Assembly: GCA_040753795.1 (NCBI GenBank)
Contig: JBFMDX010000016.1
Span: 1 to 64,000, forward strand
Direction of reading: 5' to 3'
DNA length: 64,000 bases
From: Thermodesulfobacteriota bacterium
GTDB lineage: Bacteria; Desulfobacterota; Desulfobacteria; Desulfobacterales; Desulfosudaceae
In this document: positions 3,125 through 59,280 of the stretch, piece after piece
Numbering within the stretch: the first letter of the stretch is position 1
How the letters are laid out: every line of letters begins with the position of its first letter
Program-made: the position numbers and the translations under genes
The notes under the pieces: generated by a model
What the model was told of the DNA's origin: nothing
Seen by the model: the letters and a program-made list of their open reading frames with translations, nothing else
Databases searched by the model: none

Positions 3125-4645
3125 CTAAACCTCCATTGACTGGAGATCCTGCGCAAATGCCTCCATGCCGGCTGATATCAGGTGCCGGAATTCGTCGAAG
3201 GTTTTTTCATCCATCAGGAACATGCGGGCGAAGAACTTCATGCCGATGCGGATGAAATCATTGTCCGGCAGTTCCGTCTGCGCCTTCCAGCAGAGGCGGC
3301 CGCTCTGCGGTTCCCGCATATCCCACTGGGCCTCGAACAACGTCCCCTGACCCCGGTTGGCCTGGAACATGACCGTGTTAAAATCATTGGCCAGTCCATT
3401 CACCGTTTCCGGAATGACCAGGTCGATGACGCTGATGGGGATGATCCCCAGCACGGCGCCGGATATCTCGACCTCCGGTTTGTTGATCATTTTATGCGCC
3501 AGGCGCATGGTCGATCCGTCGGTGGCGTATTCGCCGCTGATGATCTGGTCGGAAATGGCGATTTTCAACCCCAGGGCCCGGCCGGTCATGTTGAGGCGGG
3601 GCTCCCAGGCATAGTTCGCCAACTGGTGGACGGCAAAAGCCTCGGCCGGGAAGGGCGCGTCCGCGGCTGTGTCCACGGGGATGACCATGCCGCCGCGGGT
3701 ACGGACCCGGAGCCGGAAGAAGTCCCGCTGGGCCCCCAGGAAAAGCTCCAGCAGGGTCCGGCCCTGCTTGTCTTTCAGGACCAGTTCGGCGTATCCGTGC
3801 TTGTTCATTTTTTCCATGAATTTGGCCACCAGGGGAAAGCGGGCCTCGATGCCGTCGGGGTCCGAGCCGACATTAAGGGTGAAGTCCGTGTAGCGGCAGC
3901 CGTCCGCGGTTTTGACGACCGCCGAACTGGACAGTTCCAGCACTTTCATGTCGACGAACAGTCGGGGAAAGGTTTCCCGGAACACGTCCGTCACATCAAA
4001 CGACGCGCCCGGTTTGATCCCCCGCTGCCGCCTCAGCAGGTCCAGGTTGTCCGGATCGATGACCATCATCAGGTTGTCCAGCAGCCGGGTGATGTGGACC
4101 CAGCTGATATCACCGGAAAGCCAGGTCCCATTGGCGGTAATGGTATCCGACAGGCGGCCGGCGGGCGGATTGAGATTCTTCCGGATGGCGAATTCGCCGG
4201 TAAAGCTGCCGAAACCCTTGCCGTCCAGGCAGGCGTCCCCCATTTGTTCATGGGGGATGGCGGCCAGATCGATCCGCTCCGGACAGATGTCCCCCAGGAC
4301 GGAGATGCCGTAAAACCCGTTTTCCCACTGGGTGAAATAATCGCTTTTATAGAGCCGGGACAGGTCAAAGTTCATGAAGGCTTCGCGGATCAGATGAAAA
4401 ACGGCCCGGGCGTTTTCATCCTTGTCGGCCAGGCTGACAAACCGCTGCAGGAAATGGATGTACCGGATGGAAACGTCCCGGCCTTTCCCTTCCGGGTCCA
4501 GGTCCCGGACGGCATCGGCAAAATCGTAGGCCATGGCCTGGCCGGCCAGCAGCATGCCCAGAATCAACAGGGCGGCGACATGAATGACGCCGCTTTTCAA
4601 ACCGGCGGCGTTGAAATGGCGTCTGTCAGTAACCTCTGTGATCAT
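3125..4645 (-). CDS. Exported protein of unknown function
   Basis: The 506-residue product has a signal sequence (hydrophobic HVAALLILGMLLAGQAMA, cleavage about residue 39) and no later transmembrane segment, so it should be periplasmic or outer-membrane associated. I recognise no domain. The strong AGGGGGAAAG ribosome site just upstream supports ATG 4645. It is the last gene of a leftward cluster, 12 bases after the Cys-rich gene, which suggests co-transcription. One could imagine an envelope structural or lipid-handling role from its beta-rich amphipathic look, but nothing in the sequence proves this. Confidence 0.7.
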   Translation of the reverse strand: MITEVTDRRHFNAAGLKSGVIHVAALLILGMLLAGQAMAYDFADAVRDLDPEGKGRDVSIRYIHFLQRFVSLADKDENARAVFHLIREAFMNFDLSRLYKSDYFTQWENGFYGISVLGDICPERIDLAAIPHEQMGDACLDGKGFGSFTGEFAIRKNLNPPAGRLSDTITANGTWLSGDISWVHITRLLDNLMMVIDPDNLDLLRRQRGIKPGASFDVTDVFRETFPRLFVDMKVLELSSSAVVKTADGCRYTDFTLNVGSDPDGIEARFPLVAKFMEKMNKHGYAELVLKDKQGRTLLELFLGAQRDFFRLRVRTRGGMVIPVDTAADAPFPAEAFAVHQLANYAWEPRLNMTGRALGLKIAISDQIISGEYATDGSTMRLAHKMINKPEVEISGAVLGIIPISVIDLVIPETVNGLANDFNTVMFQANRGQGTLFEAQWDMREPQSGRLCWKAQTELPDNDFIRIGMKFFARMFLMDEKTFDEFRHLISAGMEAFAQDLQSMEV

Positions 4646-4657
4646 AATCTTTCCCCC

Positions 4658-5566
4658 TTATCTTTCCAGGGCCGCTGCCGCGGCGTCGGCCATCCGGTTC
4701 AGCAGGACCTCGGCCTGTCTTAAGGCCGCCAGGCCGGGCAAGGCCGACCAGAGGGCGGTCAGCACCGGCGCCCAGGGCGAGCCGTCTACGCCCAGCCCTT
4801 TGAAATCGATGGCCGGCGGCTGATAATCTTTCTTGTCGAAAAAGAAGTTGGCCGCGCGGAACCGGTCGGGATCACGGAAGGGCCAGGTGGCTTTGACCGC
4901 CAGGAATTCTCTGATCCGGCCGCAGGCGTCGGATTCCGGCCTGGAATCGGCGTCGTCCAGCGGCCTGCCCAGCCGGTTTTCCACCTGGTCGAAAAAAGCG
5001 TCCAGCAGGTCGGTCTCGGTGATCATCAGCCCGTAGTCGTACCAGTTGTCGGCCGCCTGCCGGATCAGCCGTTTACGGGCCGGGGCCAGATCACGGCAGG
5101 CGGGGCAGAAATAGGTGGCGCAGGCATAGGCCCCGTAGTAGCTCAAGCCCCGCCAGTCGATGCCGGCATTACCGTCGGCCAGGGGGTGGAGCAGGCAGCC
5201 CACGGTGCCCTTTTCAGAGCCGATCAGACCCAGGAAAGGACAATGGTGGAAGTCTTTCATGGGCCGCCTTTCATCTTCGGCGTGAAGCATGTCACCCCCG
5301 AACCGGTCAATGGCCTCGATGGTCCGCGGCACCTGGGAAAACCGTTCGGTCCGCTCGGCGAGCATCCGGGTCAGGCTTTCCCGGGACAGGTCCCTGACAT
5401 TGTAAAGACCGCAGCAGGCCCCGCAGGAAACCGCCGGGCCGACCTGGCAGAGGTAGACGCCCCCCGGTGTGCGGTCGTCAAGGCCGGCCGCTTCGGGGGG
5501 GATTTCTCCCGGGGCCTCTTCCATTCTACTGTATCTGCCCACGGACGCTGCCGCTTTTCCGTTCAA
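4658..5566 (-). CDS. Cysteine-cluster protein, possibly YkgJ-like
   Basis: The 302-residue protein has a Cys cluster at the N-terminus (C40, C48, C51 and C52 in CQVGPAVSCGACC), a HHCPFLGL segment and a later YGAYACATYFCPACRD. The pattern resembles metal-chelating Cys-cluster proteins such as YkgJ, but the match is partial. I expect an iron-sulfur or zinc site. The start is probably TTG 5566, because GGAAGGA sits eight bases before it; ATG 5524 lacks a ribosome site. It follows the membrane-protein gene by six bases and precedes the exported-protein gene by 12, so the genes look co-transcribed. Confidence 0.65.
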   Translation of the reverse strand: MNGKAAASVGRYSRMEEAPGEIPPEAAGLDDRTPGGVYLCQVGPAVSCGACCGLYNVRDLSRESLTRMLAERTERFSQVPRTIEAIDRFGGDMLHAEDERRPMKDFHHCPFLGLIGSEKGTVGCLLHPLADGNAGIDWRGLSYYGAYACATYFCPACRDLAPARKRLIRQAADNWYDYGLMITETDLLDAFFDQVENRLGRPLDDADSRPESDACGRIREFLAVKATWPFRDPDRFRAANFFFDKKDYQPPAIDFKGLGVDGSPWAPVLTALWSALPGLAALRQAEVLLNRMADAAAAALER

Positions 5567-5572
5567 ATCCGT

Positions 5573-6004
5573 TCATCCTTCCTGCCGGTCGGGGGCCCGC
5601 AGCATCAGGATAGCGCCGGCGCACAGGCCCGCGTACATGGCCATGACGATCCAGAAGGAAAGCGCTTTTTCCACCGGCCCGTCGCCGGCATATTCAAATA
5701 ATTTCAGGACATACCAGTTGGCTGTTTCGCCGGCCAGGAAGAACAGGAAGGCCAGGGCGATTGGCGCCGGGGCCGGGCGGTTTTTGAGCACCCGCTCACA
5801 GGCCAGAAGCCACAGGAAGCCGGCCAGGTGCACGGGCAGGCTCCACTTCCAGGCGGCAATTTTTTCAAAATACCAGACATTCAGCGGAAAGGCGCGATTG
5901 CCGAAGGTCAGCTCGCCGGCGGCGACCGCCAGCCCGAAGAGGACAGCGGTGACGATTATCCGTTTCAACGAGGGCGCTGCTTGATTAACCGGCATGACGT
6001 CCAT
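5573..6004 (-). CDS. Small integral membrane protein, unknown
   Basis: The 143-residue protein has about four hydrophobic helices (residues 14-32, 55-70, 80-105, 115-135) separated by short charged loops. I do not recognise a family. It lies between the BtrH-like gene and the Cys-cluster gene in the same direction with small gaps, so it is probably part of their operon, perhaps as the membrane anchor of whatever they do. Confidence 0.65.
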   Translation of the reverse strand: MDVMPVNQAAPSLKRIIVTAVLFGLAVAAGELTFGNRAFPLNVWYFEKIAAWKWSLPVHLAGFLWLLACERVLKNRPAPAPIALAFLFFLAGETANWYVLKLFEYAGDGPVEKALSFWIVMAMYAGLCAGAILMLRAPDRQEG

Positions 6005-43070: not shown

Positions 43071-43523
43071 ATGCGGAATAAATCCGGTTTTTCCCTGATG
43101 GAACTGATGGTGGTAATCGCCATTATTGGCATCGTTTCGGCCCTGACCGTTCCCAACCTGATTACCTGGCGCAACAACGCCCAGTTGTCCCGGGGCGCCC
43201 GCCAGATCTATTCCGATCTCCAGGACGCCAGAAAGATCGCCATCAAAAACAACACCGTTATCACGGTTAATTTTGACGCTGGCTCCGAAAGTTACACCAT
43301 TTTGAGGGGAGGCTCCGTACTGGCCACCCGTAACATGCCGCCGGGGATCAACATTGAGGGTGCGGTTTTCACCGCTCTCGGCAATGTCGCCTCGTTTGAC
43401 AGTCTGGGTTTTGGCCGGGATTTTTTCAGCGCCGACAACAGCGGCGCGGTTACCATCAGCCGGAGCGGCGGCCGGACCGTCACCATTGACGTCAGTTCCG
43501 GCGGCAGCATAAGGATACTGTAA
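43071..43523 (+). CDS. Minor pilin, GspH/FimT family
   Basis: The 150-residue prepilin has a six-residue leader cut after Gly6 (KSG then FSLMELMVVIAIIGIVSAL, with Glu5 of the mature protein) and a GspH-type body (LSRGARQIYSDLQDARKIAIKNN). GspH/FimU/FimT pilins prime pilus assembly and connect the tip complex to the fibre. GAGGAG precedes the ATG. First gene of the operon, one base before the next start codon. Confidence 0.9.
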   Translation: MRNKSGFSLMELMVVIAIIGIVSALTVPNLITWRNNAQLSRGARQIYSDLQDARKIAIKNNTVITVNFDAGSESYTILRGGSVLATRNMPPGINIEGAVFTALGNVASFDSLGFGRDFFSADNSGAVTISRSGGRTVTIDVSSGGSIRIL

Positions 43524-43524
43524 A

Positions 43525-44277
43525 ATGACAAACATGACCCCTGAAACAAGAGGCGACAGCGGTTTTTCACTGCCCGAACTGCTGGTCGGGATGGTACTCG
43601 GAACCATCGTCGTGGCGCTGATCGTAACCGCCTATTTTTCCCAGGCGAAAACCGGCAGTAATCAGCAGCAGATGGTGGCGATGCAGCAGAACGTCCGTTC
43701 CGGCCTGTTTTTCATGCAGCGGGATATCATGATGGCCGGGTTCGGGGAAAACACCTCGGATCCTTCCGACGCGTCTTTTACCACCGCCACACCGACCCAG
43801 GTGGCGTTTACCTTTGCCGATCCGATCTGCGTGGACGACAACATCGATAATAACGGCGACGGTAACGTGGATGAAGCCGAAGAAAAAGACGGCATCGACA
43901 ACAACGGCGATGGGGATATCGATGAGTCCAACGAGCTGGAGACCGTCCAGTTTGATCTGCAGGGGACCGAACTGCACCGGATCCTGGGCGCTGGCCGGCA
44001 GGACGATATTATCGCCTACAATATCGATCAGTTGGAATTCCTGTATACCCAGGACGACGGCGATGCCGCCACCACCTATGGGAACCAGAATGACCGGGAC
44101 GATATCCGCAAGGTCGGTATTTCGATTCTGGCCCGGAGCGAATTTCCTATAAAAGGGTACACCAATACCGAGACCTATACCACATTATCCGGAACCGTCT
44201 GGGGGCCGTTTAATGACCATTTCCAGCGGGAACTGGTCACGACCTCCGTCATGTGCCGGAACATGGTGAAGCCATAA
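43525..44277 (+). CDS. pilW: Minor pilin, PilW family, with calcium-loop-like insert
   Basis: The 250-residue prepilin is cut after Gly13 (GDSG then FSLPELLVGMVLG) and has the PilW-type body (QNVRSGLFFMQRDIMMAGFG). At residues 113-135 it carries two tandem acidic loops, DNIDNNGDGNVDE and DGIDNNGDGDIDE, which match the D-x-D/N-x-D-G-x-x-D pattern of calcium-binding EF-hand or dockerin loops. Such loops occur in some deltaproteobacterial PilW proteins and suggest that folding or assembly needs calcium. Confidence 0.88.
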   Translation: MTNMTPETRGDSGFSLPELLVGMVLGTIVVALIVTAYFSQAKTGSNQQQMVAMQQNVRSGLFFMQRDIMMAGFGENTSDPSDASFTTATPTQVAFTFADPICVDDNIDNNGDGNVDEAEEKDGIDNNGDGDIDESNELETVQFDLQGTELHRILGAGRQDDIIAYNIDQLEFLYTQDDGDAATTYGNQNDRDDIRKVGISILARSEFPIKGYTNTETYTTLSGTVWGPFNDHFQRELVTTSVMCRNMVKP

Positions 44278-44306: not shown

Positions 44307-44870
44307 ATGATGGTCGATAGTCAAAAAACCAGGCCAGGATTCAGGAACGGGGCTTCGCCGGCAAATCAGGCGAAAAAGGCGCCGGCCGGCGCTTCCACGG
44401 GCGGGTTTACCATTATCGAGGTCATGCTGGCCCTGGTTATTTTCTCCGTCGGCCTGCTGGGCGTGGCCAGTATGCAGACGTCGTCGGTAACCGGGAATAC
44501 CTCCTCCAAGCTGAACACCATGGCGGTGGAGTACGCTTCCGATTACATGGAGAACCTGCTGGCCCTGGGTGTCGACAAGGATATCGATGACATATTCGAT
44601 ACTTATGAACAACTGGATCCGGCAGATGCAGACGATCCTCACGAACCCGACGATTTTGTCGGTGATGACTTTGACGGCGACGACGCTGACGATCTGCCCT
44701 ATTATCCCGAGCTGGACTCGCTGTTTGACCTGACCTGGACGGTGGCGGACGATACTTCCGGATCCGGGCTGGCGGCGGAAGGCCCGGTCAAGGTGATCTC
44801 CGTGACGGTGCGCTGGGCCAACGGAAACAGGGCCATTACCCTGAGCAGCATCAAGGGCGAGGCGCTGTAG
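44307..44870 (+). CDS. pilV: Minor pilin, PilV family, with acidic segment
   Basis: The 187-residue prepilin has a long leader of about 33 residues cut at GG then FTIIEVMLALVIFSVGLLGVAS, the PilV signature. An extraordinarily acidic region (about 108-140, with DPADADDPHEPDD and VGDDFDGDDADD) interrupts the body. AGGAG precedes the ATG. The long leader is unusual for a type IV prepilin but is known for PilV. Confidence 0.88.
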   Translation: MMVDSQKTRPGFRNGASPANQAKKAPAGASTGGFTIIEVMLALVIFSVGLLGVASMQTSSVTGNTSSKLNTMAVEYASDYMENLLALGVDKDIDDIFDTYEQLDPADADDPHEPDDFVGDDFDGDDADDLPYYPELDSLFDLTWTVADDTSGSGLAAEGPVKVISVTVRWANGNRAITLSSIKGEAL

Positions 44871-44894: not shown

Positions 44895-45443
44895 ATGAAC
44901 AGAATCCTATCTCTCACTGACAATAGCCGGGGTTCGGTCATGGCCATCGCCCTGATGGTCATGGTGACGCTGACGATTGTCGGTCTCATGGCCGTCAAGG
45001 ACACGGTCATGGAAAGCACCATCGCGCGCAACCATACCCTGTACCGGCAGACCCTGTATCTGGCTGAAGCCGCCGTCCGGCAGGCGGTCCAGATGATGGA
45101 AGACTACACCGACGATGCCGCTGTTTCCGGAGAGTTGATGGAAAGGCCCAGCGTTCTGCCCTGGATGCGGCACTACCTGGATTTTGATTTCGGCGACGAC
45201 GCCGATTTCGGCGATTTCCGGGCCGGCAGTTACGGCAGCTTTACGCCGATCATGACGGCCAACGCCAACAACAACGCCGCCGGGTTCGTGGCCCGGTACG
45301 AGGGCGTTTCCCTGGGCTCCAGCATCGTCATGGGCCAGCCCACCAACAAGTATCAGTTTTCTATTTACGGACGGGCGGTCAGTCCCATGGCGGGCGACGC
45401 CGCCGAGACAATGGTTAAAGTCGGTTACACCATGCGGTATTAA
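44895..45443 (+). CDS. pilX: Minor pilin, PilX family
   Basis: The 182-residue protein has the PilX N-terminus NSRGSVMAIALMVMVTLTIVGLMAV, without the classical Glu5, which is normal for PilX. YLAEAAVRQAVQ follows in the helix. The body contains FDFGDDADFGDF, another acidic patch. CAGGAGGCG precedes the ATG. Minor pilins PilV, PilW, PilX and FimU with PilY1 form the tip complex in Pseudomonas; that is the role I infer here. Confidence 0.88.
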   Translation: MNRILSLTDNSRGSVMAIALMVMVTLTIVGLMAVKDTVMESTIARNHTLYRQTLYLAEAAVRQAVQMMEDYTDDAAVSGELMERPSVLPWMRHYLDFDFGDDADFGDFRAGSYGSFTPIMTANANNNAAGFVARYEGVSLGSSIVMGQPTNKYQFSIYGRAVSPMAGDAAETMVKVGYTMRY

Positions 45444-45514
45444 ATATTGCCGGTCGCGCCCGGCGCCGCGGCGCCGGTAAAGGACCGAACAGAAGGATCA
45501 TAAGGAGGCAGGCC

Positions 45515-48500
45515 ATGAAAGAAAATAAAACCAGAAAGATGGAAACCGGAGTGCGTGCCGGTGACACCCGGCCGGAAGGGGCCGGCGCCCGGGCCCGTTT
45601 CTTCAAACCGGTTCTGTGGCTGACGGCCCTGGTGATGCTGGGCCTGGCACTGGCCTCCCCCGCCCTGGCCGCCCGATGGTATCGCGACGCCGATAACGAC
45701 GGTTTTGGTAATCCCGCCTCTTACTATAACGGCTCCTGGTCGGCCGGTTACGTCAGCAATAACACGGATTGCAATGACGCCGATGCCACCGTTTATCCCG
45801 GCGCACCGGAATTATGCGACGGCAAGGATAACGACTGCGACACGGTCGTCGACGAAAACTGCGTGCCCTGGTACCAGGACGCCGACGGCGACGGTTACGG
45901 TAATCCGGGGGTTTCCGTCATCGCCAGCACCCAGCCGGCCGGATACGTCAGCAATAATACGGATTGCGATGACGCCAACGCCGCCATCAATCCCGGGGCT
46001 ACGGAAATATGCGATGATTTGAATAACGACTGCGACGGCTCCACCGACGAGGGGTGCGTTCTCTGGTACCGGGATCTGGACGGCGACGGCTACGGCAACC
46101 CGTCCGTCACCAAGGAAGATTTTGCTCAGCCCACCGGGTATGTGGCCGATTCCACCGACTGCAATGACGGCAATGCCGCTGTTCATCCCGGCGCCACGGA
46201 AGTGTGCGACGACCAGGACAATGACTGCGACGGCAGTACCGATGAGGGGTGCCAGATCTGGTACCGGGACGCCGACGCCGACGGTTACGGCAATCTGGCC
46301 TCCTCCCAGGAGGCCGTGATTCAGCCGGCCGGTTACGTGTCCAACAGCACGGATTGCGATGACACCAATGCCGCCATTCATCCCGGCGTGGCCGAAATCT
46401 GCGATACCGTGGACAACAACTGTAACGGCGCCGCCGATGAAGGGTGCCAGACCTGGTACCAGGATGCCGACGGCGACACCTTCGGCAATCCCGCCGTGTC
46501 CGTTTTGGATTTTGTCCGGCCGGCCGGTTATGTGGCCGATAATACGGATTGCGACGACGCCGACGCGACCATATATCCCGATGCCCCGGAAGTGCCGGCT
46601 GACGGTATCGACAATGACTGCGACGGCAGCGTGGACGAGGGCGAGGTCTGGTACCGGGATGCCGACGGCGATGGATACGGTAATGCCGCCGATACCAGCG
46701 TAGTCCCCGGTCCCGGCTATGTGTTGAACAAAAAGGACTGCGACGATACCGATCCCAGCGTAAATCCTGCCGCGGTGGAGGTCTGCGAGGACGGTATCGA
46801 CAACGACTGCGACGGTGGGGTGGATGAGAACTGTTCCCTCTGGTATCAGGACGCCGACGGCGACGGTTACGGTAACGCCGCCTCCTCCGTCATGGCTTCT
46901 TCTCAGCCGGGCGGCTATGTGGCTGACAACACGGACTGCGATGATACCAGAAATACCGTAAATCCCGGCGCCATGGAAATTTGCGCGGACGCCTTGGATA
47001 ATGACTGTGACGGCAGCACCGACGAAGGGTGCCAGACCTGGTATCAGGATGCCGACGGCGACACCTACGGTAATAGCGCTGTTTCTGTCGTTCTCGTGGA
47101 TCAGCCGGCCGGATACGTGGGAAACAACACGGACTGTGATGACACCAACGCCGCTATCTTCCCTAAAGCCCCGGAACTTTGCGACGGCGTGGACAACAAC
47201 TGCAATACGTTTACCGATGAAGGCTGCGTGCACAAGTGGTATCAGGACGCTGACGGCGATTCTTACGGCAATCCCGCCGTATTTGTTACCGAAAACCCGC
47301 CGGCAGGATACGTTCCGGTTCCGGGCGATTGCGATGACACCAATGCGGCCGTCAACCCGGGCGCAAATGAAGTTTGCGACGACGGGCTGGATAATAACTG
47401 CGCCGGCGGCGACAGCGAAGGCTGCCTGACCTGGTATCAGGACAGTGATAATGACGGCTTCGGCAATCCCGCCGCCACCACCATGGCCTTTACCCAACCG
47501 GCCGGTTACGTGTCCGTCCCTGGCGACTGCAACGACGCCAACGGGACAATTTATCCCGGCGCTCCGGAAATATGCGACGGTCTGGACAGCGATTGCGATG
47601 GAACCGTGGACGATGGCTGTCAGTCCTGGTATGAGGATGCCGACGGCGACAATTACGGCAACCCGGCGGTCTCCACCTCTTCCGCCACACCTCCTGTCGG
47701 TTATATTAATAATGACGGTGACTGCGATGATACCAATGCATCCATCAATCCCGGCGCCGATGAGGTTTGCGCCGACGGTCAGGACAATGACTGCGACGGC
47801 AGCACGGATGAAGGCTGTCAGGTGTGGTATGAGGACGCCGACGGCGATACCTACGGCAATCCGGCCGTTTCCATCCAGTCCAGCGACCAGCCGGCCGGAC
47901 ATGTCGAGCGGGCCGGCGACTGTGACGACGCCAATGCCGCCATTTATCCTGGTGCGGAAGAAGTTTGTGACGGTGTGGACAACAACTGCGCCGGCGGTGT
48001 GGACGAAGGTTGCGTGCAATGGTACCGCGATATGGACGGGGACACCTTCGGCGTCTCCGCTGATATGCTGATAGCCGTGAGCCAGCCGGCCGGTTACGCC
48101 GCCCGCGGCGGCGACTGCGATGACGCCAATGCCGCTGTCAACCCGGATGCCGTGGAAGTATGCGACGGCGTCAATAACGACTGTGACAGTGCCCTGGACG
48201 AGGGCTGCACCACCTGGTATCGGGACGCGGACGGCGATACATACGGCGCTCCGGCCGTATCCATGGCGTCCACTTCTCAACCGGCCGGCTACGTGGCCAT
48301 GGCCGGCGATTGCGACGACGCTGATGCCGCTGTTCACCCCGGCGCCGCCGAAATCTGCGGCGACGGGCAGGACAACGACTGTGACGGCACCGCCGATGAA
48401 GGGTGCATCACCTGGTACCGGGACGCCGACGGAGACAATTACGGTAATCCGGCCGTTCCCCTGGTGGCTACCGGGCAGCCGGCCGGTTACGTGGGCGACA

Positions 48501-51500
48501 ACTCGGACTGCAACGACGGTGATCCCCTGATCAACCCCTCTGCCGTGGAAGCCTGCGACGGTGTAGACAATAACTGCGCCGGCGGCGTGGATGACGGCTG
48601 CCTGACCTGGTATCGGGACGCCGACGGTGACGGTTACGGTAACGCGGGGGTTTCCATGGTGTCCATTGCCCAGCCGGCCGGTTATGTTCTGGACCAGGCG
48701 GACTGCGATGACGCCGATCCCCTGATCAATCCCGGCGCCATAGAAATCTGTGACGGTATTAATGATGATGACTGCGACGGCAGCGCTGACGAAGGCTGCA
48801 CCACCTGGTACCAGGACGCAGACGTCGATGGCTATGGCAATCCGGGAGTTTCCACGGTGTCCATTGCCCAGCCGGCCGGTTATGTCCAGGACGGCACGGA
48901 CTGCGATGATACCAATGCCGGCGTCAACCCCTCCCTGCCGGAAGTGTGCGGTGACGGACTGGACAACAACTGTTCCGGCGGCGCGGACGAGGGTTGTCTG
49001 ACCTGGTACCGGGACGCCGATGGTGACAATTACGGCAATGCCGGTGATTCCATGGTGACCAATACCCAGCCGGCCGGTTATGTGCCGGATAATACGGACT
49101 GCGATGATGCCCATGCCACGGTTCACCCCGGTGCCGCTGAAGTGTGCGGCGACGGACTGGACAACAATTGCGCCGGCGGTGTGGATGAAGGCTGCCTGAC
49201 CTGGTATCAGGACGCTGACGGCGACACCTATGGTAATGGCGGCGCTTCCGTGGTATCCGCGACACAGCCGGCCGGTCACGTGGCCAGAGCCGGAGATTGC
49301 AATGACACCAACCCGGCGGTGAATCCGGGCGCGGTGGAAATTTGCGGGGATGGCCTGGACAACGACTGCGCCGGCGGCGACGCGGCTTGTACGACCTGGT
49401 ATCAGGATGCCGACGGCGATGGCTACGGCAATCCGGGTGTTTCCGTTGTTTCCGTTGATCCGCCGATCGGCTACAGATCGGTTTCCGGAGATTGCGATGA
49501 CACCAATCCAAACATTAATCCCGGCGCCGTGGAGGTTTGCGGCGACGGCGTGGATAACGACTGCGCCGGCGGCGACGCGGCCTGCGCGACCTGGTATCAG
49601 GACGCCGACGCCGACGGGTATGGTAATAACGGCGTATCCATGCAGGCGGCGGCCCGGCCCCACGGGTATGTGGCCGACAACACGGATTGTAACGACGGTA
49701 ACGCGGCGGTGAACCCCGGCGTGGCGGAAATCTGCGGCGACGGCGTAGACAATGATTGTGCCGGTGGTGACGCGGTTTGCGCGACCTGGTATCAGGACGC
49801 CGACGCTGACGGATACGGCAACAACGGCGTATCCATGCAGGCCGCGGCCAGACCCCACGGGTATGTGGCCGACAACACGGACTGCAATGACGCTGATGTG
49901 ACGGTTAACCCCGGCGCCGTGGAGGTTTGCGGCGACGGCGTGGACAATGACTGTGCCGGCGGCGACGCGGCCTGCGCGACCTGGTATCAGGACGCCGACG
50001 GTGACGGGTACGGCAACAACGGCGTATCCATGCAGGCCGCGGCCAGACCCCACGGGTATGTGGCCGACAACACGGACTGCAATGACGCTGATGTGACGGT
50101 TAATCCCGGAGCCGTGGAGATTTGCGGTGACGGCGTTGACAACGACTGCGCCGGCGGCGACGCGGCCTGCGCCACCTGGTATCAGGACGCCGACGGTGAC
50201 GGTTACGGCAACAGCGGCGCGACCCTCCAGGCCGAAAACCGGCCCCACGGGTATGTGGCCGACAATACGGACTGCGACGACGCTAACGCGGCCGTCAATC
50301 CCGGGGCCAGGGAAATCTGCGGTGACGGCGTTGATAACAATTGTGATGGATGGGATCCGGGTTGCTGTACCTACTATCGGGACGGCGACGGAGACGGACA
50401 CGGCAGCGCGAACCCGGCCGATGCCGTTCAGAATGAGTGCGGGCCCTTGCCGGGCGGGTACGTGTGGAGCAGCGATGATTGCGATGACGCCAACCCGGCC
50501 GTTCATCCCGGGGCCGGAGAAATCTGCAACGGCGTGGATGACAACTGTATCGCCGGCATCGATGAAGGCTGCAACGCCTGTTATCATGATGATGACAAAG
50601 ACGGCTACGGAGATGCTGCCGATCCGAGACCCTGCGCGGCGGGCTTGAGCGTTCCCAACGGTCTGGACTGCGACGACAACAATCCCGCCGTTTATCCCGG
50701 GGCCCCGGAAGTCTGCGGCGACGCCGCCTGGGACAACGACTGTGACGGTATCGGCGAATGGGATGAAGGCTGCCGGAACTGGTGCCGGGACGTCGACGGT
50801 GACGGTTTCGGCGGCTGGGCTGACTGCGTTTCCTCCATGACCCAGCCGGCCGGATACGAACTTAACTCCAGTGATTGTAATGACAATGACCCCACGGTTT
50901 ACCCCGGGGCGCCGGAGATCTGTGACGGCAGGGACAACAACTGTAACGGTCAGAGGGATGAAACCTGTGATACCTGGTATGAGGACGCTGACGGCGACGG
51001 TTTCGGAAACGCTTCCGTGTCCGTCACATCCCCTGTCCGGCCTTACGGCTACGTAACCGATAATCGGGATTGCGATGACGCCAACCCCAATGTTAACCCC
51101 AAAGCCGCGGAAATTTGCAACGGCGTGGACGACAACTGCGTCAACGGCATCGACGAAAGCTGCAGCGACTGCTATGACGACGCCGACGGTGATGGTTACG
51201 GTAATCCCGCCATTGCCTGTGCCTGCGGCTCCTGCCCGTCGGGGAACAGTGCCGCCAATGGCCTGGATTGCGATGACACCAATCCCGGCGTTCACCCCGG
51301 GGCCGTTGAAATATGCTGGAACGGTTTAGACGACGATTGCTCCGGCGGTGACGGGTGTGCCAATACGTATTACCGTGACGCCGACGGCGACGGTCACGGC
51401 GACCCGGGCAATACGATTCTGGACGAGGACCGGCCCGACGGTTACGTATGGAACGGCGATGACTGCGATGACACCAACCCGGCCGTTCATCCCGGGGCGC

Positions 51501-54500
51501 CGGAACTCTGTAACGGGGTGGACGACAATTGCGTCGGCGGTATCGACGAAGGCTGCAACGATTGTTACGAAGATACGGACGGCGACGGCTATGGTAATCC
51601 CGGCCAGCCCTGTATCTGCGGCTCCTGCGCGACCTGGGCGGGAGCAGGTGTGAACAACGGCCTGGACTGTAATGACAGCGATCCCAGTGTTCATCCCGGG
51701 GCTCCGGAGATCTGCGGCGACGGCCAGGATAACGACTGCGACGGTCTCTGGGATTGGGACGAGGGCTGCCTGAACTGGCGTCCGGATTTTGACGGCGACG
51801 GTTACGGCAACGATAACTGGGCCCTGGCCATATCGTCAATGACGGCGCCGGCCGGTTATGTCCTCGACGCCTGGCCGTTTGATTGTAATGATGATGATCC
51901 CGCCGTCAACCCCGGCGCCACGGAACTCTGCGACGGTAAGGACAACAACTGTAACGGGTGGAAAGATGAAGGCTGCGACACCTGGTACCAGGACAGTGAC
52001 GGCGACAACTACGGCGATTCTTCCATTGTCGTGGTTTCCCTTGTCCGGCCGTATGGTTACGTGGCCGTGAACGGCGACTGCGACGACGCCAACGCAGCGG
52101 TCCATCCGGGCGCGGTGGAACTATGCGGTGACGGTCTTGACAACGACTGCGCCGGCGGAGACGCCGCCTGTACGACCTGGTATCGGGACGCTGACGGCGA
52201 TAATTACGGCAACAGCGCCGATTCCCTGGATACCGCCGATCAGCCGCCCGGATATGTGACGGCTTCCGGCGATTGCGATGACACCAACCCGGCGGTCCAT
52301 CCCGGGGCGGTGGAGATCTGCGGTGACGGGCTGGATAACGACTGCGCCGGCGGAGACGCGGTTTGTACGACCTGGTATCGGGATGCCGACGGCGACAATT
52401 ACGGCAACAGCGCCGACTTCATCGATGCCGCTGATCAGCCGGCCGGATATGTGGTTGACGGTACCGATTGCGATGACGCCGACTATTTCATTAATCCCGG
52501 GGCGGTGGAGATCTGCGGCAACTTCATCGACGAGAACTGCGACGGTCTTGACGCGGTCTGTATGACCTGGTACCGGGACGCCGACGGCGACAATTACGGC
52601 AACAGCGCCGATTCCCTGGATACCGCCGATCAGCCGCCCGGATATGTGACCGACAACACGGACTGCGATGACGCCAATCCGGCGGTCCATCCCGGGGCGG
52701 TGGAGATTTGCGGCGACACCCTGGATAATGACTGCGTCGGCGGAGACGCGGCCTGTACGACCTGGTACCGGGACGCTGACGGCGACAATTACGGCAACAG
52801 TGCCGACTTCATCGATGCCGCCGACCAGCCGCCGGGTTATGTGACGGCTTCCGGCGATTGCGATGACACCAACCCGGCGGTCCATCCGGGCGCGGTGGAG
52901 ATCTGCGGTGACGGGCTGGATAACGACTGCGCCGGCGGGGATGCCGCCTGTACGACCTGGTACCGGGACGTCGATCATGATGGTTATGGAAATCCCGGCG
53001 TGTCCGTCCAGGCGGAAGACCGGCCGGATGGCTACGTGGCTGATAATACGGATTGCAATGACGGCGATGCCGCCATCAATCCGGCTGCCGTGGATATATG
53101 TGACGGCATCGATAATGACTGTAGCGGCGGCGCGGACGAAGGCTGTCTGATATGGTATCAGGACGGTGATGGGGACGGCTACGGTAATCCTGGCGTCACC
53201 CTGTCGCAATACTATCAGCCGGCGAATTACGTGTCCGACAACACCGACTGCAATGACGGCAACGCGGCCGTCAACCCCGGCCATGCGGAAGTCTGCAATG
53301 ACGGTCTGGACAACGACTGTGACGGTAACGTGGATGACGGATGCGTGGTGTGGTATCAGGACGCCGACGCCGATAACTACGGCAACGCCGCTGTCTCAAC
53401 CACGACGGTTATTCAGCCGGCGGGTTTTGTGCCCGACAGCACGGACTGCAATGACGGCGACGCCATGGTCAACCCCGGCATGCCGGAGGTGTGCGGGGAC
53501 GGCCTTGACAACAACTGCAACGGTCTGGAGAGCGAAGGCTGCCTGACCTGGTATCAGGACGTGGACGCCGATAACTACGGCAACGCTGCCGTATCCGTCT
53601 GGTCCATTACCGAACCGGCGGGCTACGTGTCCGACAGCACCGATTGCGATGACACCCGGGCCACGGTCAACCCCGGCCACGTGGAAGTCTGCAACGACGG
53701 CCTGGACAACGACTGCGACGGTACCGCGGATGAGGGCTGCATGGTGTGGTATCAGGACAATGACGGAGATAATTTTGGTTCCGCCGTTTCCACCATTGCC
53801 GTGATCCGTCCGGCCGGATACGTTGCCGCCAGCGGCGATTGTAACGACGCCAACGCCGCCGTTCATCCCGGCGCGACCGAGATCTGCGGTGACGGCCTGG
53901 ACAACGATTGCGACGGCGCCACGAATGAGGGCTGCCTGACCTGGTACCGGGACGCCGATGGCGACACCTACGGCACTTTTGCCGTGACCGTTATGGGCGT
54001 TGTCCAGCCGGCCGGTTATGTGGACCGCCGCGGCGATTGTAACGACGGCAATGCCGCCGTTCATCCCGGCGCGGTTGAGGTGTGCGAAGACGGTCTGGAC
54101 AACGACTGCGACGGCCTGTGGGAAGAAGGTTGTCAGACGTGGTATCAGGACGCCGACGGTGACAACTGGGGCGACCACGCTGTTTCCACCGTGACCGTCA
54201 TCCAGCCGCCCGGCTACGTCTCCCGGCGTGGAGACTGTAATGACAGTGATGCCGCCATCAACCCCGACGCCATCGAGATCTGCGACGGCGTGGACAACGA
54301 CTGCTTCGGTGACGTCGACGAGGGGTGCGTGACCTGGCATCAGGACCTGGATAATGACTCCTTCGGCGATCCGGCCATTTCCATGCAGTCCGTTTCCCAG
54401 CCGTTGGGTTTCGTCGCTGACGGCACGGATTGCGACGACGGCAACGGCGACATCAATCCCGGCGAGACCGAGGTCTGCGACGACGGCATTGACAATGACT

Positions 54501-57500
54501 GCGACGGTGCCGTGGACGAGGCCTGCGTGATCTGGTACCAGGATACGGACGGCGACGGTTACGGCAACTCGGCGGTGACCGCCGTGGCGGTCAGCGATCC
54601 CGGCGGGTACGCGCCCGACGGCGGTGACTGCGATGACACCAACGCCGCCGTGAACCCCGGAGTGGCGGAGACCTGCGACGGCATTGACAACGACTGCGAT
54701 GGCCTGGAAGACGAGGGCTGCGTGGACTGGTATCAGGATAACGACGGTGATGGTTACGGTTCCGTTTTCACTGTTTCCGATTTCACCCAGCCGGCCGGTT
54801 ATGTCAATGTGCCCGGAGACTGCAACGATGCCGATCCGGCCATCCATTTCGGCGCCGTTGAGGTTTGCGACGGCGTGGATAACGACTGCGACGGCGAACT
54901 GGATGAAGGCTGCTTTGTCTGGTACCAGGATGCCGACAACGACCGGTACGGCAACACCGCCGTCAATCAACGGTCTATTGCCAGACCTGCCGGATACGTG
55001 GCCGCGTCGGGTGACTGCAACGATGCCAACGCGGTGATCCATCCTTACATGCTGGATCTGTGCGACCACCTGGATAACGATTGCGACGCCGAATACGACG
55101 AGGATGTACCGGCCGAGGAGTACCGGAAGTACTACGCCGACAATGACGGTGATGGGTACGGCAATGCCGCCGTGTGGGTGGAGGATTGCATGCTGCCGGA
55201 ATTCGGTTTTGTCGAAAACTCGACCGATTGCAACGATAACAAAGCCGACATCCATCCCGGCGCCTTTGATATCTGCGAAAACGGCGTTGACGAGGACTGC
55301 AACGGGGAAGACCGCTTATGCGGAACGGCCACGGTAAGAGGTTGCGCTGATATAGCCAATACGCCGCTGGAAACGCTTGTCAATGCCGCTCCGCCCATTG
55401 TCCTGCTGCTGCTGGACGCCTCCCAGAGCATGTCCTATGACATCATGGTGCCCATCCAGCCGGATTCCCTGTACCGCGGTGAATACGACGTGATCAGCGC
55501 CGTGGACAAGGGATACTGGCAGGCCTCGTGGTGTAAAATGAACACCATCTACTATGACCCGGATCAGATATATACGCCCTGGGACGGAATCAGTTCCGAC
55601 ACCGGTTTGCCTTATATCGACGCCGGTCTGGAAAAGGTCTCCGACCATCCCAATCAGCCGCCCAACATATTCCTGGACAGCGTGCTGAACAAGAAAATGG
55701 GCGTCAATATTATCCTGGCCCATTATTATGCCTGGTCTTCCCTGGAACAGCGGCCCTATCTGGTGATGATCGTCGATGACGGCGCGGGCTATGCCGTGAA
55801 ATATTACCAGGTCAACCCGCCCGGGGACAACGTGCTGGTTAACGGCAGCATCGTTACCACCCCCACGACGACGGCCAATCTGCCTATTGACGTCGTCATT
55901 CCTCAGGCCTGGGCGGACGGCAACAAGGAATGCTCGGCCGCGGAGGCGATGGTCGCCCGGCAGAATTTCGCCAACTGGTATCAGTACTACCATGTCCGCA
56001 TGCTGACCGCCCAGGCCACGCTGGCCAAGGTGGTGGCCCAGGTCTCGGGCATTCAGTTCGCTCTTAACACCGTCGGCGTCGTTACCACCTCCTTCCTGCC
56101 GCCGACGCTGGTGGATTCGACCCCCGAGGGCGAAATCAACCGGCAGGCGGTGATTACGGCTATATTCAAGGCCGGCTGGGCGGAGTCGAGTACCGACCTG
56201 CGCAAGAACTACGAGGAAATGGGCGAATACCTGGCGGGTGAGATCAATAAGTCAGGCCGGCCCGCGCCATGGGCCACCGAAGAGGACGGCGGCGCCTGTC
56301 AGATGTCTTTTGTCATCCTGATGACGGACGCCCAGTACAACAAATCTTCGGTTGCCAAGGCCGGGGACGAGGACGGTGACGGTAATACGGATTTTGACGG
56401 GCCGCCCTTTGCCGACGCCCATGGGCAGGAGAGCACACTGGCCGACATCGCCATGAAGTATTATGAGACCGATCTGAACCTCGATCTGCCGAACAGTGTG
56501 CCGACCACCGTCAAGGATACGGCCGAGCATCAGCATATGGTGACCTTCTCCGTGTCGTTCGGCGCCATCGGCACGCTGGATCCCAAGGGGTATATCTTCG
56601 ACCAGTATTCATCCAACTGCGCTCCGGCCGACGATCCGGCCGAGAACTGCACGGTCGACGCCCCCTGCAATTGCGCGCCCTACTGGCCGGAAGTACCCAG
56701 CACCCAGGATAACGCGCGCGAGAAGATAGACGACCTCTATCATGCCGCCGTCAACGGCCGGGGTGAGTACTTTGCCACCCGGAACGTGAACCAGTTGGCC
56801 TATGCCCTGAAGCAGATCTTCGAGGCCATCAATGAACGCCGGGGTTCCGGCGCCTCGGTCGCGGTCAGCACCCAGGAACTGACGGAAGACACCATGCTCT
56901 ACCGCGGCCTGTACAACACCTCCGGCTGGTGGGGTGAGCTGGGCTGCTGGCAGATCGATCCCGATACCGGCAATGTCAACGACACGCCCACCTGGCTGGC
57001 GTCGGAACTGCTGGATGCCCGGGATCTGTCCACCGATCCGCGGAGTATTTTGAGCTACAACCCGGATCTTGCTCAAGGCATCACTTTTGATCTCGGCAAC
57101 CTGTCTGATGAGCAGAAACTCTGGCTGGGAGGCAGCAACGAGGAACGGCAACGGCTGATCGACTTTATCAAGGGCGACCGTTCCGAGGAAATAAAGAACG
57201 GCGGCTACCTGCGCGACCGCGTTTCCCGCCTGGGCGATATCATCCATTCGGCGCCGGTGCACGTTCTCTATAGCGACGGCACGGATTATCTATACGTGGG
57301 CGGCAATGACGGCATGTTGCATGCCTTTGACGCCTCTTCTTCCGGAACCGGCGGGCAGGAGATTTTCGCCTATGTCCCGAGCTACGTGTATGAAAACCTG
57401 GTTTCCCTGTCCGATCCGAATTATAGCCATAAGTACTACGTGGACACGACGCCGTATGTCGACAAGTCGGGCCTGCTGGTTGGCGGTCTGGGCGCGGGCG

Positions 57501-58810
57501 GCAAGGGCTATTTTGCCCTGGATGTGTCCGATCCGCGCAATTTCTCCACCGGCGATGTGCTGTGGGAATACCCCCCCGGCGTGGATGACGACATGGGCTT
57601 CTCCTTCTCCAAACCCATCACCGTGCCGCACGAGTCCGGGCGGGTGGTTCTGTTCGGAAACGGCTATGACAGCAAAAACGGCCGGTCCGTGCTCTATGCC
57701 CTGCGGATCGACGCCAATAACGCCATCGTGGAGGTCAGGAAGATCGATACCCTGACCGGCAGCCAGTCCGGCGACCCGGCAAACCCCGGCGATTGTAACG
57801 GACTTTCCAATATCGCCCCAACGGACATGGATTACGATGGTAATGTGGATTATGTTTATGGCGGTGATCTTCAGGGCAATATGTGGAAGTTCGATTTGAA
57901 CGCCCCCACTGCCGCCGGATGGAAGGTCGCGTACGGCACGGCCGCGGCGCCCCAGCCCCTGTTCCATGCCGAGCATACGGCCGGCGTTCCCCAGCCCATT
58001 GTCGGCATGCCCGATGTCATGCGGCACTGCCTGACCAACCGGGCCGGGTACATTGTGGTCTTCGGCACCGGCAGCTTTTTTGCCAACGGCGATTATCAGG
58101 ATACGTCCACGCAGTCGATTTACGGCATCTGGGACTGGGCCGATGAACTGGCGGCGGGCGGTATCGTCAATCCGGAAAATTACCCTCTGGGCGCTCCCAC
58201 CCGAATGACCGACTATGCTTCGCTGCCGGTCTCCCTGGGCGGGGCTTCGCCGGTCACGTTTGCCCTGCTGGGGCAGTCCGAGACGGCGGTATCCGACGAA
58301 TTCCGGGTGACCAGCCAGGCCAAGCTGTATGACAAGTATATCGATCCGGACGGCATTCCCAATAATGCCGATGACCAGCGGGCCTGGTTTGACGCCGAAC
58401 TCTGGGAGTCTGACGGCGCCGCTTATACCGGCGTCCGTTACGTGGGCTGGTATTTTGATTTGCCCGACAGCGGGGAGCGGGTCGTGGCCGATGCTACCAT
58501 CCGGGCCGGCCTGGCCATCATGGTCTCGGTGGACCCGTCGCCGATGCCCTGCAAGATCGGCGGTCATTCCATCCTGCAACTCCTGCAGGCCTGCGACGGC
58601 AGCCGGCCGGATGACGAGGTTCTGGACACCAATGACGACGGGGTCATTGATGCCGATGATATTGAAGCCAACCGCAAGGACCTGGACGATATCTACTACA
58701 AGCCGGTCATTATCGAAGACAAGATGTATTTCAGCGAAGACGATCCCGAACAGGGGCCATCGGAGGCGCTGGGCGTGGCCTATTGGCGGTTCTTGAGAGT
58801 GTTGCGCTAA
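45515..58810 (+). CDS. pilY1: Giant PilY1-like tip protein with 49 MopE-type metal-binding repeats
   Basis: The 4431-residue protein has four parts. (1) A long signal sequence, cleaved near residue 52 (VMLGLALASPALAA). (2) From about residue 55 to 3270, 49 tandem units of about 65 residues, each following WYxDADGDGYGNP...QPAGYVxDNTDCDDxN and PGAxEICGDGxDNDCxG with a final DEGC; each has the DxDxDG loop and usually four Cys. This is the MopE putative metal-binding motif. (3) A VWA-like domain with LLLLDASQS (Asp3301, Ser3303, Ser3305). (4) The PilY1 beta-propeller with YVGGNDGMLHAFDA near 3922 and the calcium site DMDYDGNVD (Asp4104, 4106, 4108, 4112), plus DTNDDGVIDADD near 4371. AAGGAGG precedes the ATG. 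PilY1 controls retraction and adhesion at the pilus tip. Units 21-23 and 34-37 are nearly identical. Confidence 0.9.
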   Translation: MKENKTRKMETGVRAGDTRPEGAGARARFFKPVLWLTALVMLGLALASPALAARWYRDADNDGFGNPASYYNGSWSAGYVSNNTDCNDADATVYPGAPELCDGKDNDCDTVVDENCVPWYQDADGDGYGNPGVSVIASTQPAGYVSNNTDCDDANAAINPGATEICDDLNNDCDGSTDEGCVLWYRDLDGDGYGNPSVTKEDFAQPTGYVADSTDCNDGNAAVHPGATEVCDDQDNDCDGSTDEGCQIWYRDADADGYGNLASSQEAVIQPAGYVSNSTDCDDTNAAIHPGVAEICDTVDNNCNGAADEGCQTWYQDADGDTFGNPAVSVLDFVRPAGYVADNTDCDDADATIYPDAPEVPADGIDNDCDGSVDEGEVWYRDADGDGYGNAADTSVVPGPGYVLNKKDCDDTDPSVNPAAVEVCEDGIDNDCDGGVDENCSLWYQDADGDGYGNAASSVMASSQPGGYVADNTDCDDTRNTVNPGAMEICADALDNDCDGSTDEGCQTWYQDADGDTYGNSAVSVVLVDQPAGYVGNNTDCDDTNAAIFPKAPELCDGVDNNCNTFTDEGCVHKWYQDADGDSYGNPAVFVTENPPAGYVPVPGDCDDTNAAVNPGANEVCDDGLDNNCAGGDSEGCLTWYQDSDNDGFGNPAATTMAFTQPAGYVSVPGDCNDANGTIYPGAPEICDGLDSDCDGTVDDGCQSWYEDADGDNYGNPAVSTSSATPPVGYINNDGDCDDTNASINPGADEVCADGQDNDCDGSTDEGCQVWYEDADGDTYGNPAVSIQSSDQPAGHVERAGDCDDANAAIYPGAEEVCDGVDNNCAGGVDEGCVQWYRDMDGDTFGVSADMLIAVSQPAGYAARGGDCDDANAAVNPDAVEVCDGVNNDCDSALDEGCTTWYRDADGDTYGAPAVSMASTSQPAGYVAMAGDCDDADAAVHPGAAEICGDGQDNDCDGTADEGCITWYRDADGDNYGNPAVPLVATGQPAGYVGDNSDCNDGDPLINPSAVEACDGVDNNCAGGVDDGCLTWYRDADGDGYGNAGVSMVSIAQPAGYVLDQADCDDADPLINPGAIEICDGINDDDCDGSADEGCTTWYQDADVDGYGNPGVSTVSIAQPAGYVQDGTDCDDTNAGVNPSLPEVCGDGLDNNCSGGADEGCLTWYRDADGDNYGNAGDSMVTNTQPAGYVPDNTDCDDAHATVHPGAAEVCGDGLDNNCAGGVDEGCLTWYQDADGDTYGNGGASVVSATQPAGHVARAGDCNDTNPAVNPGAVEICGDGLDNDCAGGDAACTTWYQDADGDGYGNPGVSVVSVDPPIGYRSVSGDCDDTNPNINPGAVEVCGDGVDNDCAGGDAACATWYQDADADGYGNNGVSMQAAARPHGYVADNTDCNDGNAAVNPGVAEICGDGVDNDCAGGDAVCATWYQDADADGYGNNGVSMQAAARPHGYVADNTDCNDADVTVNPGAVEVCGDGVDNDCAGGDAACATWYQDADGDGYGNNGVSMQAAARPHGYVADNTDCNDADVTVNPGAVEICGDGVDNDCAGGDAACATWYQDADGDGYGNSGATLQAENRPHGYVADNTDCDDANAAVNPGAREICGDGVDNNCDGWDPGCCTYYRDGDGDGHGSANPADAVQNECGPLPGGYVWSSDDCDDANPAVHPGAGEICNGVDDNCIAGIDEGCNACYHDDDKDGYGDAADPRPCAAGLSVPNGLDCDDNNPAVYPGAPEVCGDAAWDNDCDGIGEWDEGCRNWCRDVDGDGFGGWADCVSSMTQPAGYELNSSDCNDNDPTVYPGAPEICDGRDNNCNGQRDETCDTWYEDADGDGFGNASVSVTSPVRPYGYVTDNRDCDDANPNVNPKAAEICNGVDDNCVNGIDESCSDCYDDADGDGYGNPAIACACGSCPSGNSAANGLDCDDTNPGVHPGAVEICWNGLDDDCSGGDGCANTYYRDADGDGHGDPGNTILDEDRPDGYVWNGDDCDDTNPAVHPGAPELCNGVDDNCVGGIDEGCNDCYEDTDGDGYGNPGQPCICGSCATWAGAGVNNGLDCNDSDPSVHPGAPEICGDGQDNDCDGLWDWDEGCLNWRPDFDGDGYGNDNWALAISSMTAPAGYVLDAWPFDCNDDDPAVNPGATELCDGKDNNCNGWKDEGCDTWYQDSDGDNYGDSSIVVVSLVRPYGYVAVNGDCDDANAAVHPGAVELCGDGLDNDCAGGDAACTTWYRDADGDNYGNSADSLDTADQPPGYVTASGDCDDTNPAVHPGAVEICGDGLDNDCAGGDAVCTTWYRDADGDNYGNSADFIDAADQPAGYVVDGTDCDDADYFINPGAVEICGNFIDENCDGLDAVCMTWYRDADGDNYGNSADSLDTADQPPGYVTDNTDCDDANPAVHPGAVEICGDTLDNDCVGGDAACTTWYRDADGDNYGNSADFIDAADQPPGYVTASGDCDDTNPAVHPGAVEICGDGLDNDCAGGDAACTTWYRDVDHDGYGNPGVSVQAEDRPDGYVADNTDCNDGDAAINPAAVDICDGIDNDCSGGADEGCLIWYQDGDGDGYGNPGVTLSQYYQPANYVSDNTDCNDGNAAVNPGHAEVCNDGLDNDCDGNVDDGCVVWYQDADADNYGNAAVSTTTVIQPAGFVPDSTDCNDGDAMVNPGMPEVCGDGLDNNCNGLESEGCLTWYQDVDADNYGNAAVSVWSITEPAGYVSDSTDCDDTRATVNPGHVEVCNDGLDNDCDGTADEGCMVWYQDNDGDNFGSAVSTIAVIRPAGYVAASGDCNDANAAVHPGATEICGDGLDNDCDGATNEGCLTWYRDADGDTYGTFAVTVMGVVQPAGYVDRRGDCNDGNAAVHPGAVEVCEDGLDNDCDGLWEEGCQTWYQDADGDNWGDHAVSTVTVIQPPGYVSRRGDCNDSDAAINPDAIEICDGVDNDCFGDVDEGCVTWHQDLDNDSFGDPAISMQSVSQPLGFVADGTDCDDGNGDINPGETEVCDDGIDNDCDGAVDEACVIWYQDTDGDGYGNSAVTAVAVSDPGGYAPDGGDCDDTNAAVNPGVAETCDGIDNDCDGLEDEGCVDWYQDNDGDGYGSVFTVSDFTQPAGYVNVPGDCNDADPAIHFGAVEVCDGVDNDCDGELDEGCFVWYQDADNDRYGNTAVNQRSIARPAGYVAASGDCNDANAVIHPYMLDLCDHLDNDCDAEYDEDVPAEEYRKYYADNDGDGYGNAAVWVEDCMLPEFGFVENSTDCNDNKADIHPGAFDICENGVDEDCNGEDRLCGTATVRGCADIANTPLETLVNAAPPIVLLLLDASQSMSYDIMVPIQPDSLYRGEYDVISAVDKGYWQASWCKMNTIYYDPDQIYTPWDGISSDTGLPYIDAGLEKVSDHPNQPPNIFLDSVLNKKMGVNIILAHYYAWSSLEQRPYLVMIVDDGAGYAVKYYQVNPPGDNVLVNGSIVTTPTTTANLPIDVVIPQAWADGNKECSAAEAMVARQNFANWYQYYHVRMLTAQATLAKVVAQVSGIQFALNTVGVVTTSFLPPTLVDSTPEGEINRQAVITAIFKAGWAESSTDLRKNYEEMGEYLAGEINKSGRPAPWATEEDGGACQMSFVILMTDAQYNKSSVAKAGDEDGDGNTDFDGPPFADAHGQESTLADIAMKYYETDLNLDLPNSVPTTVKDTAEHQHMVTFSVSFGAIGTLDPKGYIFDQYSSNCAPADDPAENCTVDAPCNCAPYWPEVPSTQDNAREKIDDLYHAAVNGRGEYFATRNVNQLAYALKQIFEAINERRGSGASVAVSTQELTEDTMLYRGLYNTSGWWGELGCWQIDPDTGNVNDTPTWLASELLDARDLSTDPRSILSYNPDLAQGITFDLGNLSDEQKLWLGGSNEERQRLIDFIKGDRSEEIKNGGYLRDRVSRLGDIIHSAPVHVLYSDGTDYLYVGGNDGMLHAFDASSSGTGGQEIFAYVPSYVYENLVSLSDPNYSHKYYVDTTPYVDKSGLLVGGLGAGGKGYFALDVSDPRNFSTGDVLWEYPPGVDDDMGFSFSKPITVPHESGRVVLFGNGYDSKNGRSVLYALRIDANNAIVEVRKIDTLTGSQSGDPANPGDCNGLSNIAPTDMDYDGNVDYVYGGDLQGNMWKFDLNAPTAAGWKVAYGTAAAPQPLFHAEHTAGVPQPIVGMPDVMRHCLTNRAGYIVVFGTGSFFANGDYQDTSTQSIYGIWDWADELAAGGIVNPENYPLGAPTRMTDYASLPVSLGGASPVTFALLGQSETAVSDEFRVTSQAKLYDKYIDPDGIPNNADDQRAWFDAELWESDGAAYTGVRYVGWYFDLPDSGERVVADATIRAGLAIMVSVDPSPMPCKIGGHSILQLLQACDGSRPDDEVLDTNDDGVIDADDIEANRKDLDDIYYKPVIIEDKMYFSEDDPEQGPSEALGVAYWRFLRVLR
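45677..55325 (+). repeat. Coding tandem repeat, 49 units of about 195 bp
   Basis: The Trp codon that opens each unit recurs with a constant 195-base step over long stretches, for example 49592, 49787, 49982 and 50177, and 51983, 52178, 52373, 52568, 52763 and 52958. Unit lengths vary slightly in the irregular part (units 24-32). Copies 21-23 and the two-unit block 34-35 / 36-37 are near-identical at DNA level. Confidence 0.9.
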
Positions 58811-59233: not shown

Positions 59234-59280
59234 CGGGGCTTTCATCATGCTGACGGCATGATGAAAGCCCCGTTTTTTTA
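59234..59280 (+). terminator. Strong rho-independent terminator of the pilus operon
   Basis: GGGGCTTTCATCATGC and GCATGATGAAAGCCCC form a perfect 16-bp stem around a short loop, followed by GTTTTTTTATA. Confidence 0.93.

Follow-up and report, generated by a model that had tools for sequence, protein, structure and literature searches.

A PilY1-type protein with 49 N-terminal PF11617 units in a Desulfobacterales bacterium

The protein PilY1 determines what type IV pili make contact with and what they sense, and the version of P. aeruginosa has 1163 aa (PMC3248442). In the window analysed here, which comprises the first 64,000 nucleotides of contig JBFMDX010000016.1 of a Thermodesulfobacteriota bacterium, we find instead a PilY1-type frame of 4431 aa, whose N-terminal 3215 residues are 49 consecutive units of the family PF11617, named Cu-binding_MopE in Pfam. 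Such a protein raises the questions of whether the array is genuine, which metal its units would bind and where on the pilus it would be placed.

A giant PilY1 gene at the end of a minor-pilin cluster

The giant gene (45515..58810, +) encodes a protein of 464.7 kDa with a calculated pI of 4.05, and its translation reads through with no internal stop. A ribosome-binding site, AAGGAGG (45502..45508, +), ends 6 nt 5' of the ATG, and a signal peptide is predicted at the N-terminus (45515..45670, +), with cleavage at A-L-A|A after aa 52 and a layout alike to that of a paralogue described below; inspection of the sequence revealed no visible lipobox or other anchor. Pfam profiles delimit the array (45677..55321, +; aa 55-3269) as 49 PF11617 stretches with a score of 1560.5 bits, the curated cut-off being 27. 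It is followed by a VWA-like domain with approximate limits (55397..56839, +) and a DASQS motif of the MIDAS type at aa 3301. A VWA domain with a MIDAS is a feature of only some PilY1s. Pfam makes no VWA call in the giant and gives weak VWA_2 matches in two of six close homologues, whereas the DxSxS signature is present in the giant and strands and helices alternate along the region in a structure model of medium confidence. Further downstream, the PilY1 beta-propeller (57287..58141, +) is matched by PF05567 at aa 3925-4209 (139 bits, E 2.8e-40) and contains the sequence DMDYDGNVD (57824..57850, +; aa 4104), predicted by motif to be a calcium-type DxDxDGxxD loop of the family described for PilY1 propellers (PMC3123361). 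The best Foldseek match of the modelled C-terminal part is the P. aeruginosa PilY1 structure 3HX6 (E about 2e-25), which is also recovered from this part by a sequence profile (E 2.6e-90). The initial annotation had proposed a PilY1 module with the DASQS and DMDYDGNVD motifs, fused in one uninterrupted frame behind 49 units covering about 3,200 residues, and all of this stands, with the Pfam match to the propeller lying downstream of those to the MopE motif.

The gene is the last of a minor-pilin cluster with intergenic gaps of 1 to 71 bp. From the 5' end, the cluster encodes minor pilins of the FimT/GspH type (43071..43523, +; N_methyl and GspH matches), PilW (43525..44277, +; PF16074), a PilV-like protein (44307..44870, +; N_methyl, and TIGR02523 at 50.1 bits, slightly short of the 52.2 required) and PilX (44895..45443, +; PilX_N, PF14341), and it is closed by a strong intrinsic-terminator-like hairpin of 18 pairs followed by a T run (59234..59272, +). 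A C-terminal propeller with its DxDxDGxxD loop and a linkage to minor pilins are features of the PilY1 class, and the giant shares them, together with a preceding VWA-like region, with PilY1/PilC tip adhesins such as P. aeruginosa PilY1 and M. xanthus PilY1.3. Elsewhere in the genome, on contig 4, genes for PilO and a secretin lie at most 5 kb apart, and more than one secretin is encoded. This last point, together with the kinship of minor pilins with pseudopilins and the likening of PilY1 to a type II secretion (T2SS) substrate (PMC7541494), would fit a secretion-type pseudopilus, with the protein released or bound to the surface rather than sitting atop a long pilus. PilX, PilW and the PilY1 propeller are, however, typical of type IVa pili, and the T2SS has no PilY1 (PMC10191384); we regard such a use as very improbable.

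In the open-access literature we found no description of a PilY1 joined with PF11617 arrays, although subscription papers or domain databases may list it, nor did the literature searched contain a PilY1 with thrombospondin repeats or a giant PilY1 of this architecture, in line with the initial annotation, to which no described PilY1 with such an array was known. A 2026 survey identified vWFA and DUF4114 as the sole conserved N-terminal domains of PilY1 (PMC13190605).

Repeat units and their candidate metal

The units of the array are 64-71 aa long and follow the consensus WYxDADGDGYGN...QPAGYV....DCDDxN...PGAxExCxDGxDNDCDGxxDEGC, with about 10 variable residues between WYxDADGDGYGN and QPAGYV, four before DCDDxN and another four before PGAxExC. 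Altogether, the array holds 577 Asp and 113 Glu for 62 Lys plus Arg, as well as 208 Cys. When the units of both giants of this genome are considered, D3, D5, D7, G10, D41, C42, D44 and C68 are invariant in all 88, a result that upholds the acidic metal-loop character initially attributed to them. By its sequence, the first loop belongs to the Dx[DN]xDG type, like the calcium loop in the PilY1 propeller, although the strict pattern is missing in many loops because the sixth residue is G in just 41 of the 88 units and mostly N or T in the others. A second loop, DxDC, occurs at the correct spacing in 25 of the 49 units. Most units have four cysteines and therefore would form about two disulphides each, while extra cysteines occur in units 24-27, 29 and 31. 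Within the stretch of units 24-32 (about 50177-52000), which has no counterpart in the paralogue and apparently includes a duplicated multi-unit block, several units carry 5-8 Cys each.

Thrombospondin type-3 repeats also consist of rows of DxDxDG-like loops with cysteines, but this is a resemblance only; unit length and cysteine spacing look different by eye, and no thrombospondin type-3 profile matched the giant in Pfam at E 0.01. Modelling of four units with AlphaFold gave one confident model out of five (92.6 versus 34.7-51.4 for the rest), for which no fold match was found in the PDB, and our search for a solved structure of a PF11617 unit yielded none.

The name of the Pfam family invites a reading as copper or other transition-metal capture, and the initial annotation had linked the motif to copper through MopE. 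The MopE protein of Methylococcus capsulatus has a single PF11617-like motif, which our alignment places at residues 15-47 of MopE*, nearly the same stretch as the first 46 residues missing from the MopE* crystal; Cu(I) is held elsewhere, by His132, His203 and kynurenine 130 (PMC3423442). Alignments of the array units to MopE* are confined to the motif and its surroundings (residues 15-47, or 14-75 when four units are used as the query, which matches 2vov with 24.4 bits and E 1.7e-4) and stop before residue 130. The MopE copper domain, with its His132, His203 and Trp/kynurenine130, is absent from the giant, the non-array part of which is PilY1, just as MopE lacks any PilY1 module. Once the motif had been located in MopE* (PMC3423442), a copper function by name was discarded as the main reading. 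A residual argument for copper comes from the His found at the IHPGA position of 18 of the 49 units, which aligns with MopE* His26, a residue considered by the authors of the structure for weak Cu(II) binding (PMC3423442), and these 18 units may be candidates for such binding. The same His is absent from the other 31 units, the invariant candidate ligands are carboxylates, the Cu(I) ligands of MopE fall outside the motif and the adjacent genes are pilus genes, all of which makes metal capture of this type quite improbable. Calcium, on the other hand, appears to be the likelier metal, because of these same carboxylates, the location of the Cu(I) site of MopE and the finding that CaCl2 guards MopE* against proteolysis (PMC3423442).

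Origin and maintenance of the array

Mis-assembly is a known hazard of tandem arrays, so that an artefact of assembly, or an untranslated frame, has to be weighed. The longest exact repeat inside the array is 95 bp, below the usual short-read length, and collapse or mis-joining is therefore unlikely; the array lies inside a contig of 111,553 bp, and divergence between neighbouring units amounts to fractions of about 0.25 for nonsynonymous and 0.61 for synonymous sites. Moreover, a second giant PilY1 of 3776 aa with 39 PF11617 units is encoded on another contig of the genome (C1:175548-186878; L024:7549-18879), downstream of PilW and PilX genes, with no FimT or PilV found in its neighbourhood. 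The two arrays share no exact stretch longer than 30 bp. Between both proteins, dN and dS reach 0.24 and 1.73 in the array and 0.28 and 1.12 in the C-terminal part, or dN/dS ratios of about 0.14 and 0.25, which are rough given the high dS values, and purifying selection acts on both parts. With this strong selection, the short exact repeats, the separate paralogue, the ribosome-binding site and the lack of stops, the artefactual reading was rejected and its probability is negligible. The genome encodes a third PilY1, an ordinary one of 1008 aa without PF11617 units (contig C3; L026:7166-10192, -).

A comparison of the two arrays unit by unit gives an idea of how they grew. Units 1-18 of both giants correspond position by position (mean z 2.4), as do the last eight units with an offset of +10 (z 5.9-7.1 for the last three), whereas no alignment was found between the middles. 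An ancestor with about 26 or more units follows from these corresponding ends, and gain or loss of units can be placed in the middle of the array, where that of the window shows single-unit duplications (21-23, 34-37) and a five-unit one (25-27 with 30-32). In a tree built from the C-terminal parts, the giants pair as sisters with a support of 100 and nest in a group of five unit-bearing PilY1s with a support of 96.

The source genome is near that of Desulfococcus sp. 4484_241 (Desulfobacterales), one of two genomes found from the same family, and a search for the fusion in other genomes, as suggested in the initial annotation, revealed it in many Desulfobacterales. PilY1s of the same layout have four units in Desulfococcus sp. 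4484_241, two in Desulfoluna, seven in Desulfamplus nJC1bin9 and one to four in other Desulfobacterales. The idea of a unique fusion was consequently abandoned, and the exceptional feature of the giants is the length of the array. As in the giants, the units precede a VWA-like region and the propeller, the unit adjacent to the VWA can be recognised as the same one in closer relatives, and pilin genes are found upstream in Desulfococcus sp., Desulfamplus and most of the Desulfoluna loci checked. Unlike the giants, these proteins have 1-7 units and about 1400-2820 aa, and several carry a further N-terminal domain ahead of the units. Among 389 genomes of the order, no PilY1 frames are longer than those of the two giants, the next one having 2820 aa among the matches listed; no other giant PilY1 appeared in a 297-genome sample of the phylum, and a search of plasmids gave nothing beyond ordinary PilC/PilY homologues.

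These relatives bear on whether the array does anything by itself. Same-family relatives have the extra N-terminal domain followed by four units, while the units of the giants start right after the signal peptide, as would be expected if a head domain had been lost and the array were a passive stalk of drifting length, with function residing only in the VWA and propeller. Such drift would also fit the different middles of the paralogous arrays and the recent duplications of one and five units. A passive stalk is nevertheless unlikely in our opinion, as dN/dS is no higher in the array than in the PilY1 part, the aspartates of the first loop are kept in every unit of both proteins and a long array persists in both copies.

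A proposed place for the array on the pilus

The array had originally been envisaged as an arm that keeps the tip module at a distance from the cell. Cryo-ET and tagging in M. xanthus showed that the C-terminal domain of PilY1 sits on the minor pilins, with the N-terminal domain outermost at the very tip (PMC7541494), and an array at the N-terminus is hence expected to project beyond the tip module. This geometry and the want of a lipobox or anchor on the array speak against the arm, and with a signal peptide of the cleavable type and no visible anchor, projection beyond the pilus tip is the simplest reading. The array is thus probably a distal tip fibre extending past the PilY1 head, not an arm lifting it.

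Taken together, the best explanation, to which we assign a probability of about 0.6, is a PilY1 tip protein whose N-terminal chain of 49 domains extends past the pilus tip, is stiffened by calcium and contacts surfaces. The protein would first be exported by the Sec route, and its PilY1 module would then dock on the products of the neighbouring upstream minor-pilin genes and cap the growing pilus. Having no anchor of its own, the array would be the first part out through the secretin and would form a thin tether beyond the tip, with a length of perhaps 120 nm on the assumption that the units, of 6.8 kDa each, are compact beads of 2.5 nm, a value estimated from the unit mass. Each unit, with some two putative disulphides and two or three acidic DxDxD-type loops, would most likely bind calcium, giving a rigid chain that resists proteases outside the cell. 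As no cap domain is present at its end, the array itself would touch the surface first, offering a long-reach, multivalent and polyanionic contact to minerals, matrix or other cells. Of this picture, the fusion, its homology, conservation and selection and the gene cluster are direct results, and the export route, the orientation in this organism, the metal, the disulphides, the length and the ligand are proposals.

The pilus machine of M. xanthus jams when sfGFP is fused to the C-terminus of PilY1.3 (PMC7541494), and export of 3200 additional residues is for this reason not trivially compatible with it. The question posed is how the chain passes through the secretin, possibly aided by calcium-driven folding outside. 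In a bolder version, which we put forward tentatively and would not bet on, the array would be a true tip fibrillum, over 100 nm long, that precedes the pilus during export, folds and stiffens through calcium and disulphides only outside the cell and acts as a long elastic or adhesive leader, with the two paralogous fibres of unequal length defining two kinds of pilus. An N-terminal array nearly three times as large as the remainder of the protein, in a PilY1 retained in two copies by this genome, suggests that a pilus can be hugely extended at its outermost part. Related bacteria offer a natural series of 0, 2, 4, 7, 39 and 49 units with which to examine how far a pilus tip reaches, how it adheres and how it transmits force. 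These results also correct the interpretation in terms of copper that the name of the Pfam family may prompt.

Units of the PF11617 type also occur in other proteins of this genome. A lipoprotein-like protein of 710 aa (contig C20; L027:4571-6703) combines seven of them with an apparent formylglycine-generating-enzyme (sulfatase-modifying) domain, and two similar proteins of 530 aa (contig C11; L028:1884-3476 and 4050-5642, -) have about three units each, followed by a repeated C-terminal domain that looks DUF1566-like. Finally, a protein of 762 aa (contig C21; L029:4066-6354, -) contains a parallel-beta-helix-like part together with loops resembling those of thrombospondin type-3 repeats and PF11617 units.
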